A stretch of DNA of 64,000 nucleotides from Oscillospiraceae bacterium. Its GTDB lineage: Bacteria > Bacillota > Clostridia > Oscillospirales > Oscillospiraceae. Positions 1-8,849 of the stretch are shown piece by piece (positions within the stretch are counted from its first letter, which is position 1; each line of letters begins with the position of its first letter). A program made the translations under genes and the position numbers. Under the pieces are notes generated by a model. That model was given only the letters and a program-made list of their open reading frames with translations, searched no databases and was not told where the DNA came from. The DNA lies in NCBI GenBank assembly GCA_015067845.1, contig SVLT01000007.1, forward strand, positions 31,509 to 95,508, in the 5' to 3' direction.

Positions 1-440
1 TGAGGAAGCCTGCCTTTGGCAAAACAAAAGCCAGCCAGCATACCGCCTGCACCGTAAGCCATCATCTGCCAAGGTGTATATGCGCCCTGCCCGTAGAAAA
101 AGTTACTGCCGAAGGCGGAAATGGCGCCGATCATAAAGCCTGCTTCCGGGCCAAAGGCAATACCGCTGAGCATAATGATCGCGAAAATTGCCTTGAAATT
201 AGGGATGGGAATCGCTGCACGGCCTGCAATGGCGATGGCGCACATAACCGCGATCACCACCAGCTCTCTTGCCTGAGGGCGTCTGCCCTCAAAGGCCATG
301 AAGAAGGGGATCATCAGTTCAATGATGATAGCTGTGCCGGTGAGGTAGTAGCCGCGCCCCGGCAGTTTGCTGCCGAAAAATAAGGTAAGAGGAATCAGCA
401 AAAAGAATACGATCAAGGTGGCGATGTTTGACTTTTTCAT
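1..440 (-). CDS. ECF transporter S component (substrate-binding membrane subunit), partial at window start
   Basis: Open minus-strand frame from ATG at 440 running off the window: MKKSNIATLIVFFLLIPLTLFFGSKLPGRGYYLTGTAIIIELMIPFFMAFEGRRPQARELVVIAVMCAIAIAGRAAIPIPNFKAIFAIIMLSG...; hydrophobic; overlaps the ECF ATPase stop (ATGA). Confidence 0.8.
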   Translation of the reverse strand, partial: MKKSNIATLIVFFLLIPLTLFFGSKLPGRGYYLTGTAIIIELMIPFFMAFEGRRPQARELVVIAVMCAIAIAGRAAIPIPNFKAIFAIIMLSGIAFGPEAGFMIGAISAFGSNFFYGQGAYTPWQMMAYGAGGMLAGFCFAKGRLP

Positions 441-2095
441 ATTGCGACCTCTTGATTCTGTCGGCACAATTCCACCACATCCTCAGCGGTGACAGCCATG
501 GAAAATACGTGGCGGCTCATACGGTTTGCGGCGGTGGTGTAGAAGCTGTTATTCCCGAAGAAACGACGGGGCGTATCGGTGGTTAAGATCTGCCCGTCAA
601 AGAACATGGAAACCATATCCGCATATTTGGCACAGAATTCCACATCGTGGGAAACCATAACGATGGTGATCCCTTGCGCTTTCAGCTTGCAAAGAATGGC
701 GGCCAGTTTTTCCTTAAAGAAGCTGTCAATGCCCTTGGTGGGCTCATCCAACAGAAGAAGTTTCGGCTCGGTCAGCAAGACCTTTGCCAGCGCACTGCGC
801 TGCTGCTCACCACCGGAGAGGTCATAGGGATGGTTATTCAACAAGCTCTCGATTTCGCAAACTGCGGCAACTTCCGCAATTCTCTTTTCGTCCTTAGTCA
901 TTTCCGCAAGGTCTTCCCGGACGGTCTTTTTCACAAACAGACTTTTGGGATCCTGGGGCAGCATCGCAAGACAACCGCCGAAAAGCTCGCTTGCCTTATA
1001 TTTTTCCACTGGCTTGCCGAACACCTTTACCTTGCCACGGTAGGGCTTGCAGATGCCGCAAACGGCTTTTAGCGTGGTTGACTTACCTGCGCCGTTACCG
1101 CCCACAATGGCGTACAGCGAGCCCCTGGGGACCTTAGCGGACACGCCCCGAAGCACATCCGGGCTGTCCTTTTCATAACGGAACCACAATTCTTTTAAGG
1201 AAAGGACAGGGTTCTCGATCTCATCTTCCAGTTCTTCCACAGCCAGGGTATGGACTGCGGGATCAGAATGGGTCTTGCTGAGCCAGGTGCGACCCTCCCG
1301 GACGGTTAGCGGACAATCACCCACGCCGTCTGCGCCATAAAATACACGGACGGGAGTGGGCATGGCAGCAAACATATCATTCTGCTGTTCGTGCAGGAGT
1401 TTGCCGATATTTCTGGGCGTGTCGTCGGCGATCACTTTGCCTCCGTCCATCATGACAGCCCGATCCGCGTAGGGGAATATATCTTCCAGACGATGCTCCG
1501 TGATGATCACCGTTGTACCCAGCTCCGTATTGATCTTGCGGACCGTATTCAAAAAATCCGATGCCGCAATGGGATCAAGCTGGCTGGTGGGCTCGTCTAA
1601 AATCAGGACTTCCGGCTGCATTGCCATAATAGAAGCCAGATTCAGTAGCTGCTTCTGACCACCTGAGAGATTGGCAACATCCCGGTGGAACCAGTCCTGG
1701 ATACCAAAATAGCAAGCCATTTCCGCAACACGGGAGCGCATAGTCTTTTGGTCACAGCCCAGGCTTTCCAAACCGAAGGCCAGTTCGTGCCAAACCTTGT
1801 CGGTGACGATCTGATCGTCGGGATTTTGCATCACATAGCCGATCTTGGCAGATTGGCCACGCTCGCTGACCTTCTCAATGGGTGTGCCATTAAACAAGAT
1901 CTCGCCTTGTTTCTTACCGTGGGGCGCCAATACGGTTTTTAACTGTCGCAAAAGTGTCGTTTTGCCGCTGCCCGACTTTCCGCAAAGAACAATATATTCT
2001 CCCTTTTCGATAGAGAGATTTACACCGTCCAGGGACAATTTGCCCTTGGCGGTTGGATAGGAAAAACTCAAATCCTTGATCTCGAAATGTGCCAT
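437..2095 (-). CDS. ECF-type ABC transporter ATP-binding protein with two fused ATPase domains
   Basis: Two Walker A motifs (GKSGSGKTT, GGNGAGKST) and two signature motifs (LSGGQKQ, LSGGEQQ). Confidence 0.92.
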   Translation of the reverse strand: MAHFEIKDLSFSYPTAKGKLSLDGVNLSIEKGEYIVLCGKSGSGKTTLLRQLKTVLAPHGKKQGEILFNGTPIEKVSERGQSAKIGYVMQNPDDQIVTDKVWHELAFGLESLGCDQKTMRSRVAEMACYFGIQDWFHRDVANLSGGQKQLLNLASIMAMQPEVLILDEPTSQLDPIAASDFLNTVRKINTELGTTVIITEHRLEDIFPYADRAVMMDGGKVIADDTPRNIGKLLHEQQNDMFAAMPTPVRVFYGADGVGDCPLTVREGRTWLSKTHSDPAVHTLAVEELEDEIENPVLSLKELWFRYEKDSPDVLRGVSAKVPRGSLYAIVGGNGAGKSTTLKAVCGICKPYRGKVKVFGKPVEKYKASELFGGCLAMLPQDPKSLFVKKTVREDLAEMTKDEKRIAEVAAVCEIESLLNNHPYDLSGGEQQRSALAKVLLTEPKLLLLDEPTKGIDSFFKEKLAAILCKLKAQGITIVMVSHDVEFCAKYADMVSMFFDGQILTTDTPRRFFGNNSFYTTAANRMSRHVFSMAVTAEDVVELCRQNQEVAI

Positions 2096-2946
2096 TGGAT
2101 GGCCTCCTTTATATGTAATGCTGTGGGGATCAGAAGATAGCAGGTATACACTGGAAGTCCCCAGGAAACAGGCGCGAGCTCTATTGCAGGTACAAAAACG
2201 GCTGTAAACTGACCAAAACAGGCGGCGGCAACGGTAGCTCCAAGCAGAAAAAGCATAAGAGCGAGCGCGATCCAGTCTGCCTGGGTTATGCGGTAAATCA
2301 TAAAGCTGCTCCGCTTAGCCGTACCGTAGCCCCGGGCGCGCATGGAATCGCCGGTAATTACGCTGCCCTCCAAGGCCCAGGAAGTCAGGGCTCCCAATAC
2401 GGTTCCGCCATCGTACAGTTTTTCTTTTGTTGTGGCAGCTTCATCGGCACCTTTGCCGATGGATTTTCTCGCACCGATGATCTGTTGCGTTTTTCGGATG
2501 AAATTGGGAACCATGCGGAATACCATTACCAAAAGCAAAGAGATGGATGGGATCAGATTGCCAAACAGACTGGTAAATTTATCTGAGGTCAGCACCTTGT
2601 TGTAGCAGCCGAACCAAAGCATCATAATCACAAACATACCGGCAAGTGCACTGCCGTAGCACAGTGCCTCTAATGTATAGGGTCTGCTTCCAAGGTAAAA
2701 CAACGGGGTTGCGCCCAGGGTGTTAAACAGCGGATTGATGACAGTCAGGATCACAAACATAGGCAGCAAGCCCAATATGGTCTTCCAGCCTTTTTTGCCA
2801 TTCAGGAGCAAGTAGTAAATTGCACCTGTTATCATACTGGCAAGCAAATATGCCGGGTGCTGAATTACCACCGACATACCGATGGCTCCCACGAAAAAGA
2901 GGAAGTTCACCGCTGGGTGGTATTTGGAAAAAGCATCACAATTCAT
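2068..2946 (-). CDS. Energy-coupling factor transporter transmembrane protein (EcfT/CbiQ-like)
   Basis: Multi-TM protein with ...DSMRARGYGTAKR... coupling motif; adjacent to ATPase and S component. Confidence 0.88.
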   Translation of the reverse strand: MNCDAFSKYHPAVNFLFFVGAIGMSVVIQHPAYLLASMITGAIYYLLLNGKKGWKTILGLLPMFVILTVINPLFNTLGATPLFYLGSRPYTLEALCYGSALAGMFVIMMLWFGCYNKVLTSDKFTSLFGNLIPSISLLLVMVFRMVPNFIRKTQQIIGARKSIGKGADEAATTKEKLYDGGTVLGALTSWALEGSVITGDSMRARGYGTAKRSSFMIYRITQADWIALALMLFLLGATVAAACFGQFTAVFVPAIELAPVSWGLPVYTCYLLIPTALHIKEAIQWHISRSRI

Positions 2947-2949
2947 CGG

Positions 2950-4650
2950 TTATTCCATCCAGTCACAGCCCACATCACGCCCCAGACCTTTGCAGGTATA
3001 GCACCAGACGATCACATCTCCGTCCTCCAAATAATAGCTGGAACAGCCGTAATTGGGGAACCACTCGTTGACCTTGTACATCCAACCGGATTGTTCACCG
3101 CAGTCAAACTCATACAGATGGTTGATGCCTTCAATATAGTAGCTACCATACAGCGGCGTCCAGCTGTACTCGATCTGGATGTTTGCCTTTTTGCAAATTC
3201 GGTTCAGTACCTCAAAAACAGTTTCATTTTCATAAAACGGCACTTGCACCATAGGCAAAATCGTTCCGTTGGACGGTACGAATTCTTCCTTGCCGGGGGT
3301 TAGATCGTTCATATTGCCGAGGATCGTATCACAGCGGATCTCGATATACACATAGCCCACGATTCCCGGCTCTTTCTTTGCAATTGTCTGTTCTTCCTTT
3401 TTGGCGCAGACAGAGCAGGATCGTTCTTTCAAACCCTCCGCTGTTTCCGTAGCTTCTTTAACCGTATTCCAAGCGCTCCAGGAGTGACCGGCAGGCTGGG
3501 TTTGGGAATCCGTGTATGTTTTGCCGCAGGTGCATTTATAAACGATATATCCCTGAGCTTCACAAGTCGGTTTTACAACCTGTGCAGTATAGCTGTGGCT
3601 TTTTGCGGAAACGGTATTGCTTGTATAGGTATGTCCGCAATTGCAGGTATAGACTGTATACCCTTCGGTCGTGCAGGTCGGCTCCACGACCTGCTCCGTG
3701 TAACTGTGGGTATGATTTTCGCTGAGCTTGTCGGTTTTCTTTTCTTCCGTAGTCTGACAATTGGAACAGGTTCGCTTTTGCAGACCTTCTTCTTGGGTCG
3801 TTGCCGGCTTTTCCACTGTCCAGGGGCCCCAGATGTGCGCCAATGCCGCGGTTTCTTCTGCCCGGTAGCTGTCGCCACATTCGCAAACATATTCCGTGTA
3901 GCCGCTTGCCGTACAGCTGGGTTCAGCGATTGAAACAGTATAGCTGTGGCTATGTGCGTCCGGCCTGGTCTGACCGTTCAGCATATCCTGAATTGCCTGC
4001 TGACGCTTGATTTCCAGATCATCCAGATCCTGATTGGTATAGCAAAGGGTAACGGTGCTGTTGGTTTTTCTAATCTGCGTAAGAAGAAAATCATTCAGAC
4101 CATCCAATTGCATATTTCGTGTAGAAACAGTATCGCCCACATACTCCATTGCCTGGCCGGCGTTGGCATCACCAACGGTGCCACGGAATATATAAACAGT
4201 TTGCGCACCGTCACGAACGCTGAGGGCGGCTGTGGCATTTTCAACCGTGGCTTCACCCAGAGCATAAGTAAGCTGAACGGTCTGCTGGCTGTTGACAAAC
4301 AGCTCGCCTTTGGTAACAGTCAGTACAAGCTGCCGGTTTCCCGGATCGGTCACGGTCAATTCCATGTTGCCGCCCAAAACAACGGTATCATTTCCTCTGG
4401 AAATTACCGCAGATGCGCCGAGATTGGTAGTGATTTTGTCACCTGGCCGAAGAACGGTATCCTGGTCTACCGGATAGATCACACCGCTGCGCTCCATATT
4501 CACCGTGCCCTGCAACTGGGTCAGATAGGCGATATCCTCAGAGACCGTGTCAAACCATCCCCGGATATAGCCTACACCCAAAATACCGCCGGCCACGATC
4601 AGCAGGATAACGGCGACCATAATCAAGTTGGCGATCTGCTTCTTTTTCAT
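2950..4650 (-). CDS. Membrane-anchored protein: FecR-like domain, CxC/CxxC 'HSYT..CGxTYT' repeats, C-terminal DUF4430 (transcobalamin-like C-terminal) domain
   Basis: N-terminal TM; FecR-like region (PGDKITTNLGASAVISRG); three Cys repeats; C-term GWMYKVNEWFPNYGCSSYYLEDGDVIVWCYT typical of DUF4430. Confidence 0.8.
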   Translation of the reverse strand: MKKKQIANLIMVAVILLIVAGGILGVGYIRGWFDTVSEDIAYLTQLQGTVNMERSGVIYPVDQDTVLRPGDKITTNLGASAVISRGNDTVVLGGNMELTVTDPGNRQLVLTVTKGELFVNSQQTVQLTYALGEATVENATAALSVRDGAQTVYIFRGTVGDANAGQAMEYVGDTVSTRNMQLDGLNDFLLTQIRKTNSTVTLCYTNQDLDDLEIKRQQAIQDMLNGQTRPDAHSHSYTVSIAEPSCTASGYTEYVCECGDSYRAEETAALAHIWGPWTVEKPATTQEEGLQKRTCSNCQTTEEKKTDKLSENHTHSYTEQVVEPTCTTEGYTVYTCNCGHTYTSNTVSAKSHSYTAQVVKPTCEAQGYIVYKCTCGKTYTDSQTQPAGHSWSAWNTVKEATETAEGLKERSCSVCAKKEEQTIAKKEPGIVGYVYIEIRCDTILGNMNDLTPGKEEFVPSNGTILPMVQVPFYENETVFEVLNRICKKANIQIEYSWTPLYGSYYIEGINHLYEFDCGEQSGWMYKVNEWFPNYGCSSYYLEDGDVIVWCYTCKGLGRDVGCDWME

Positions 4651-8051: not shown

Positions 8052-8240
8052 TTAATTTTCCTTTGGGGGTTTCAATCCGGCAGACTCCAATGCCCGGGGC
8101 CATGGCCCAAGGTATGCCTTGATCTGGGCGCAAGCAGCATTATCGAAGTCCTTTTTGGTGGGGAGCCTTCCAAGCTCCGCATACTTTTGCCGCAGAAGGT
8201 CCTCCGCCCAGGCCTTCTTCTCTTCCGGTGTCACTTGCAT
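8052..8240 (-). CDS. Small protein resembling a homing-endonuclease-associated-repeat type helical domain
   Basis: 62 aa, AEDLLRQKYAELGRLPTKKDFDNAACAQIKAYLGPWPRALESAGL; AAAGGAGGG RBS upstream on minus strand. Confidence 0.55.
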   Translation of the reverse strand: MQVTPEEKKAWAEDLLRQKYAELGRLPTKKDFDNAACAQIKAYLGPWPRALESAGLKPPKEN

Positions 8241-8270
8241 CCCTCCTTTACATCTTTGTGGTCTATACGC

Positions 8271-8324
8271 AAAAAGAGCACAACCAACTTATCCGCAAGT
8301 ACGGATAAATTAGGCTGCACTCTC
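8271..8324 (-). terminator. Intrinsic terminator between riboswitch 2 and the operon
   Basis: Minus strand GAGTGCAGCCTAATTTATCC..GGATAAGTTGGTTGTGCTC followed by TTTTT. Confidence 0.7.
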
Positions 8325-8344
8325 CTGTCAAAGCGTGATAGACC

Positions 8345-8441
8345 CAATCGACACAGCAGGCTCTCTGACTTAGGGATATACCCAACACAGCAATGGACGG
8401 TTGTTCCGGATTCTGACCGGATCACCTTACCGCGTCGATAA
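8345..8441 (-). promoter_or_regulatory. Compact cobalamin-riboswitch-like element (riboswitch 2)
   Basis: Minus strand ATCGACGCGGTAAGGTGATCCGGTCAGAATCCGGAACAACCGTCCATTGCTGTG...AAGTCAGAGAGCCTGCTGTGTCGAT: GGTGA/AATCC, CxTTGCTGTG and AGTCAGAxxxCCTGC landmarks, closing P1 stem ATCGAC/GTCGAT. Confidence 0.65.
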
Positions 8442-8463
8442 AGCAATATTCAGTTGGTTACGG

Positions 8464-8521
8464 GCTGTGACCGTCCGGGCAATCTGTGCAGAAGGGGATC
8501 CTGCACATGGACGGTCACAGC
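8464..8521 (-). other. Long perfect hairpin between terminator 1 and riboswitch 2
   Basis: GCTGTGACCGTCC / GGACGGTCACAGC (13 bp) with nested TGTGCAG/CTGCACA. Confidence 0.75.
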
Positions 8522-8560
8522 AAAAAGGCTGCAGCAACCCGATAAAGAGTCGCCGCAGCC
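8522..8560 (-). terminator. Intrinsic terminator downstream of riboswitch 1
   Basis: Minus strand GGCTGCGGCGACTCTTTATCGGGTTGCTGCAGCCTTTTT. Confidence 0.75.
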
Positions 8561-8618
8561 GTTTTTCCGCAACAAAAAATCACAGAATCCGTACTTGCAG
8601 ACTCATGTGTTTTTACCT

Positions 8619-8805
8619 CATTTAAGCAGTTCTCCTGACTTGCGGATCGTCAGTTCTGCATAGCCTTCTCAGGTTACCCCAATGACCGGCTTTCGCCAAA
8701 TGCAGAACCTCCACGCATACAGTGGCGGTACCGTCCGGGATTCGCACCCGGTTATCTATTCTCCTGCGGGGCTGTTACCGCGTCCACAGGCACTTAAACG
8801 GAATA
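8619..8805 (-). promoter_or_regulatory. Cobalamin riboswitch (riboswitch 1)
   Basis: Minus strand ...CCGGGTGCGAATCCCGGACGGTACCGCCACTGT...GAGAAGGCTATGCAGAACTGACGATCCGCAAGTCAGGAGAACTGCTT: canonical GGTGxxAATCC, CCGCCACTGT, AGAAGGC and GTCAGGAGAACTGC boxes. Confidence 0.9.
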
Positions 8806-8820
8806 TTTACTTGCAGGGAT

Positions 8821-8849
8821 AGTATACACGAACGCAACGGAAATGTCAA
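8821..8849 (-). promoter_or_regulatory. Consensus sigma-70/sigma-A promoter for the riboswitch operon
   Basis: Minus strand TTGACA-17 nt-TATACT just upstream of riboswitch 1. Confidence 0.8.

Follow-up and report, generated by a model that had tools for sequence, protein, structure and literature searches.

Results

Organization of the leader and the downstream operon

The window analysed here is a stretch of 64,000 nt from an Oscillospiraceae bacterium (assembly GCA_015067845.1, contig SVLT01000007.1, positions 31,509 to 95,508). Its minus strand carries a leader with the order promoter, element 1 aptamer, P13-1, terminator T1, spacer hairpin, element 2, P13-2/T2, Shine-Dalgarno sequence and operon (Table 1). 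The first gene encodes a short protein with a homing-endonuclease-associated (HNH) repeat, and this gene heads the riboswitch-controlled operon across an order. In addition to the genes listed, the operon encodes a membrane protein that resembles an ECF S component by sequence. Because B12 binders of the transcobalamin type have DUF4430 as their C-terminal domain (PMC4350170), we infer that the operon serves corrinoid uptake of the cobalamin-type ECF kind.

Table 1. Features of the leader and of the operon (positions within the window)
Feature	Position	Strand	Evidence
Sigma-70-like promoter, TTGACA-17-TATACT	8821..8849	(-)	Motif scan
Element 1, class-I cobalamin riboswitch aptamer	8608..8812	(-)	RF00174 match, 89.6 bits, E 7.6e-21
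P13 hairpin of element 1, loop L13-1 CUGCAAGUACGG (8588-8600)	8575..8614	(-)	Sequence and alignment; fold -12.2 kcal/mol
Candidate antiterminator of element 1, UUGUUGCGG with CUGCGGCGA	8550..8575	(-)	Scan; fold -9.3 kcal/mol
Terminator T1, 14-bp hairpin 8527-8560 and U-tract 8522-8526	8522..8560	(-)	Scan and fold; equivalent T1 in relatives
Spacer hairpin between T1 and element 2, CCCC and GAUUGCCC motifs	8464..8521	(-)	Sequence
Element 2, compact cobalamin aptamer (P1, P4, P5/L5, P6, B12 box AAGUCAGAGAGCC)	8347..8439 (93 nt, P1 to P1)	(-)	RF01482, covariation, model R1
L5 of element 2 (CCGUC), kissing-loop partner of L13-2	8392..8402	(-)	Alignment; L5/L13 co-difference between tandem and single loci
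P13 of element 2 (P13-2), loop L13-2 UUGACAGG (8324-8331)	8312..8345	(-)	Alignment and fold
Shared strand GAGUGCAGCC (P13 3' strand and T2 5' strand)	8313..8322	(-)	Sequence and folds
T2, hairpin 8276-8322 (about 20 bp, -27.5 kcal/mol) and UUUUU 8271-8275	8271..8322	(-)	Fold, covariation
Helix H, 3' strand GCGUAUAGACC	8260..8270	(-)	Folding with and without P13
Shine-Dalgarno sequence AAAGGAGGG of the first operon gene	8241..8249	(-)	Sequence
HNH_repeat protein, 60 aa, first gene, GTG start	8052..8234	(-)	PF18780, E 1.4e-11
Secreted PQQ_2/cadherin-like protein, 1075 aa	4800..8027	(-)	Domain/sequence
DUF4430 (transcobalamin C-terminal-like) protein	2950..4650	(-)	PF14478, E 1.3e-18
EcfT-like membrane protein	2068..2946	(-)	Gene order; no Pfam match
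Fused ECF ATPases	437..2095	(-)	TIGR04520, E 3e-104

A simple promoter scan yielded a single sigma-70-like site, located upstream of element 1, and none between elements 1 and 2; its TTGAC and TATACT region is retained in most aligned relatives. A separate promoter for element 2 was rejected, as the scan was negative and element 2 almost abuts T1 in the related loci L042, L080 and L097. These three tandem loci also lack the spacer hairpin, which in the window consists of perfect outer arms of 13 bp and an inner stem with CCCC(C)UU and GAUUGCCC motifs. An Rfam search gave no match to this hairpin (8464-8521). Spacer-like structures are found 3' of class-I riboswitch terminators in L045, L046 and L049, which carry no element 2.

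Element 1 lies well above the gathering cut-off of the RF00174 covariance model (31.5 bits). By inference from the sequence, GUAC in L13-1 would be able to pair with GUAC in the L5-1 sequence GGUACC (8724-8734). P13-1 ends at 8575, before the T1 stem starts at 8560, so that P13 and T1 do not overlap; between them lies the candidate antiterminator, which overlaps the 5' arm of T1 and would have an antiterminating role. The other cobalamin riboswitch of this genome (L002, 1100-1760; RF00174, 67.9 bits) is single, precedes a lipoprotein-like gene and likewise has its P13 apart from the terminator.

Element 2 is a compact cobalamin aptamer

In Rfam, element 2 is a weak match: the AdoCbl family RF01482 matches 8312-8452 of the minus strand with 25.9 bits (E 0.02 over 4227 Rfam families), compared with a gathering score of 50, and a genome search with RF01482 did not report it. 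Yet in an alignment of 10 sequences from 10 species 97.6% of the cells are paired in the structure formed by aptamer, P13 and kissing loop, and eight compensatory pairs were found (six in P1, two in P6), a value reached in none of 500 shuffles. The P1-P4-P5-P6 core with its B12 box is thus conserved and backed by covariation. The whole tandem occurs in nine species of the genus including that of the window, the other eight being 78-88% identical. Our covariance model R1 also detects element 2 in three further genera of the same family (L080-L082) and in another family (L097), every time behind a class-I unit. A partial match to the FMN riboswitch at 8403-8474, which covers the cobalamin P4, was rejected (18.5 bits with a cut-off of 66.2).

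These results confirm element 2 as a genuine cobalamin aptamer in spite of its low Rfam score; corrinoid binding is predicted, and the data do not establish a separate receptor class. Compactness by itself does not decide membership of class II, which is defined by selectivity for small beta-axial ligands (AqCbl, MeCbl). A leader with a pair of cobalamin riboswitches, each equipped with a terminator-like hairpin and the downstream one compact, had been proposed before, and the RF00174 score together with the covariation of element 2 and T2 bears this out. The positions agree closely as well: the original prediction placed element 1 at 8619-8805, element 2 at 8345-8441 (about 95 nt) and T2 at 8271-8324, and its T1 is identical to ours. 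It had suggested scoring both aptamers with covariance models and discarding element 2 if it failed all of them and showed no ligand-dependent change in structure. Element 1 passes, whereas element 2 is neither accepted by RF01482 nor missed outright, and it is covariation and the kissing loop described below that settle the matter.

A strand common to P13 and T2 in element 2

For a wider comparison 80 named loci were fetched with the HNH_repeat protein as query, from Clostridia genomes that are mostly gut MAGs. A compact element with T2 is present in 18 of these, with a class-I unit visible upstream in 16; in the remaining two (L116, L118) the contig ends before the upstream region. Another 58 loci contain a single aptamer, which is mostly full-length.

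L5 (CCGUCC) and L13 (GACAGG) of element 2 pair as CCGUC with GAC[A]GG, leaving one base bulged. The bulged base varies (GACCGG in L125 and L080), and G-U replaces G-C in L127 and L081 (GAUCGG). All 17 readable tandem loci combine L5 CCGUCC with L13 GACnGG or GAUCGG, while most readable single-aptamer loci combine CCGCC with GG(U/C)G: L5 and L13 differ together between the two groups and kissing-loop complementarity is retained. Pairing of the L4 loop (GUCA) with L13 (UGAC) was considered and rejected, since L4 varies to GUGA or GUUA in relatives in which L13 is constant; L5 CCGUC fits.

P13-2 and T2 are mutually exclusive through their common strand, and the same layout is found in all 18 tandem loci. 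T2 is supported by four compensatory pairs and conforms to the pattern of an intrinsic terminator in these loci and in the window (-20 to -34 kcal/mol, directly followed by 5-7 U). In L127 the shared strand has C in place of A, which gives P13 a G-C pair, and T2 shows a matching change; an altered shared strand is accompanied by an altered T2 in L132, too. Because P13 and T2 exclude each other, antitermination by ligand is predicted for element 2, unlike element 1. Simple two-stage repression is therefore not supported, and the original prediction of two-stage control missed the sign expected for the second stage. As T2 (-27.5 kcal/mol) is far more stable than P13-2 (-7.2 kcal/mol), such antitermination would have to be kinetic.

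Layouts deviating from that of the window were seen at several other loci. In L107 (1451-1720, minus orientation) a single compact cobalamin riboswitch precedes a cobB-like gene and its terminator shares the P13 strand, which is an activating layout. L045 (1501-2250) contains a class-I cobalamin riboswitch and, about 300 nt downstream, a second aptamer that is also cobalamin-like but of a different type; the gene behind it has a start resembling that of lipoproteins. In L047 (1220-1345) an aptamer resembling element 2 is located directly before the ribosome-binding site of the gene.

Tandem loci lack the last terminator of their single-aptamer relatives

The competitor of P13 in the single-aptamer loci is a long antiterminator, X2 (mean duplex energy -24.3 kcal/mol vs -9.8 kcal/mol for shuffled sequences), whose 3' strand doubles as the 5' arm of the last terminator, T_end. 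Judged from folding, ligand-bound P13 would free this arm, which is a repressing layout. A T_end with an arm freed in this way is present in 56 of the 58 single-aptamer loci and in none of the 18 tandem loci, which carry T1 upstream in its place. The association yields a Fisher p of 1.5e-15, a value that is overstated because loci are treated as independent although they reflect one evolutionary event. The U-run after the stem on the shared strand also differs: 5-7 U in all tandem loci compared with at most 4 in 54 of 56 single-aptamer loci.

A terminator-like hairpin on the shared strand, T_a, is nevertheless found in 45 of the 58 single-aptamer loci, and an ON arm may therefore predate the tandem. 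The single-aptamer loci L135-L195 show one aptamer followed by two terminator-like hairpins about 80-90 nt apart, T_a, which P13 excludes, and T_end, which P13 releases. As the single-locus relatives mostly have full-length aptamers before the same gene, element 2 seems to have arisen by reduction from an ordinary cobalamin aptamer, and its compactness may be derived. In a tree of the HNH_repeat proteins the tandem loci form one clade nested among the single-aptamer loci (support 98/87). The change thus probably happened once, with gain of the upstream OFF unit, loss of T_end and compaction of the aptamer.

A helix beyond T2 and access to the Shine-Dalgarno sequence

Just after the U-tract of T2, GCGUAUAGACC pairs with the P13 5' strand GGUCUAUCACGC (8333-8344) in the T2 state. 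This helix H is more stable than expected across 19 sequences (-12.4 vs -8.3 kcal/mol for shuffled sequences), and it covaries, partly in a lineage-specific manner (permutation p 0.016). Since it needs sequence past the U-tract, the T2 state must have a role in transcripts that extend to full length. Folding further indicates that formation of P13 lowers access to the Shine-Dalgarno sequence at most but not all loci, as the U-rich strand can cover it.

The data on helix H fit a translational OFF switch in which T2 serves as a stem that prevents sequestration and is locked by helix H, and in which ligand-bound P13 frees the U-rich strand onto the Shine-Dalgarno sequence; together with T1 this would make a bi-mechanism OFF/OFF tandem and would preserve the OFF sign of the single-aptamer relatives. 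We retain it as the chief rival reading, though a rather unlikely one. Sequestration is inconsistent, with little or none in L117, L126, L130 and L134, and in L117 an insertion places the gene 207 nt from T2. The longer U-run of the tandem loci suits a terminator better than an anti-Shine-Dalgarno strand, and a stem of this strength with 5-7 U behind it should stop the polymerase even when no ligand is bound. Helix H also fits transcriptional activation at T2: P13 would be needed only while the polymerase passes T2, and after readthrough the leader would refold to T2 with helix H, leaving the Shine-Dalgarno sequence open.

Discussion

We propose that the leader contains two cobalamin riboswitches of opposite sign, OFF at T1 and ON at T2, with a ligand response that is predicted from sequence; this is the most probable of the readings considered, at about even odds. 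Corrinoid bound to element 1 would promote the L5-L13 kissing loop and allow T1 to form, OFF being the usual outcome for class-I cobalamin riboswitches. A polymerase passing T1 would reach element 2, where corrinoid would induce the kissing loop of CCGUC with GAC[A]GG, stabilize P13 and block T2; without ligand T2 would form and transcription would stop. The operon would then be transcribed only with element 1 empty and element 2 filled, and the input could be corrinoid supply within a certain range, or the presence of one form of corrinoid when another is scarce. A differing corrinoid preference of the two units is possible but cannot be assumed, because corrinoid riboswitches are semiselective or promiscuous (Kennedy et al. 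2022, PMC9600662).

Covariation in aptamer and T2, the co-difference of L5 and L13, the change in L127, the loss of T_end and the precedent of cobT (see below) argue for the OFF-then-ON arrangement. Weighing against it, helix H extends past the U-tract, which would be surprising if every transcript ended at T2, and a U-rich strand covering the Shine-Dalgarno sequence in the P13 state, as in many loci, would act as OFF. An ON arm is also unusual for a B12 uptake operon.

An ordinary pseudo-cooperative tandem, in which both units terminate when bound and the response to one corrinoid becomes steeper, would be the usual outcome for doublets of one class, 26 AdoCbl doublets having been reported and all treated in this way (Sherlock et al. 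2022, PMC9481103), and all characterized corrinoid riboswitches but one are repressing (PMC10653944). Since P13 and T2 have a strand in common, and no alternative to P13 that would block T2 in the absence of ligand came to light, this arrangement appears distinctly improbable here. Cross-talk between the units, with L13-1 (CUGCAAGUACGG) pairing with the T2 loop (CCGUACUUG) and so preventing T2 when element 1 is empty, draws on 9-12 complementary bases (8588-8600 and 8292-8305) that are invariant across the nine full-length tandems from the genus and recur in L080 and, with one G-U pair, in L097. The L13-1 sequence is unchanged in loci without element 2, though, L081 lacks the L13 site and L082, L121, L132 and L134 lack the partner in the T2 loop, which makes such pairing very unlikely to be functional. 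Decay of element 2 to a relic, with T2 acting as a constitutive attenuator, might be suggested by the sub-threshold Rfam score and by the absence of a recognizable L13 or T2 in L047/L133, but is scarcely plausible given the compensatory changes and the L5/L13 pairing retained within the tandem clade.

If OFF at T1 and ON at T2 is right, a broader account can be ventured, which is possible but rather doubtful. The operon would need both an OFF and an ON arm, which its single-aptamer relatives would realize with two terminators of opposite sign (T_a and T_end) on one aptamer. In the tandem clade the OFF arm would have passed to the newly acquired class-I riboswitch and element 2 would have kept the ON arm alone, resulting in a natural band-pass or in the logic corrinoid A AND NOT corrinoid B. 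A leader with opposite signs at T1 and T2 would be a natural band-pass filter or two-corrinoid logic gate made of RNA only, permitting B12 uptake when some, but not too much, B12 is present. With a single ligand, band-pass behaviour would call for tighter binding by element 2 than by element 1. It would offer a testable account of how gut bacteria spare a costly B12-capture system both at zero and at sufficient B12, and a traceable route for the loss of the OFF arm from an expression platform. As element 2 falls below the Rfam cut-offs, surveys based on Rfam would count such leaders as single riboswitches.

Neither a review of tandem riboswitches (PMC9481103) nor the other open-access papers searched yielded a tandem of one class with opposite signs. 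The AdoCbl doublets described in the review likewise place two cobalamin aptamers in one leader, but are classed as having the same sign, whereas our leader joins a full-length aptamer to a compact one, with opposite signs predicted; AqCbl riboswitches are listed among those never seen in tandem (PMC9481103). The bi-mechanism SAM-II/SAM-V tandems (PMC9481103) would be comparable only if element 2 were translational, in which case both would have a transcriptional unit upstream and a translational one downstream; they respond to another ligand class, and our downstream unit has a terminator-like hairpin in addition. With RF01482 and other compact cobalamin riboswitches element 2 has the P1-P4-P5-P6 layout and the B12 box in common, but it stays far below the RF01482 cut-off and its single-locus relatives are mostly full-length. 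Element 1 resembles the repressing metE riboswitch of P. megaterium (PMC10653944), in which P13 also lies apart from the terminator with an antiterminator in between; it differs in being followed by a second cobalamin unit. The closest parallel to the sign predicted for element 2 is the activating corrinoid riboswitch of A. halodurans cobT, described as the first known and the only one characterized in the open-access literature searched, for which mutagenesis demonstrated that P13 and terminator exclude each other (Procknow et al. 2023, PMC10653944). As in element 2, a P13 stabilized by L5-L13 and the terminator use a common strand. The cobT riboswitch is single, controls a lower-ligand gene and responds to cobinamide, whereas element 2 is the second unit of a tandem, precedes an uptake operon and is predicted to give an ON response.
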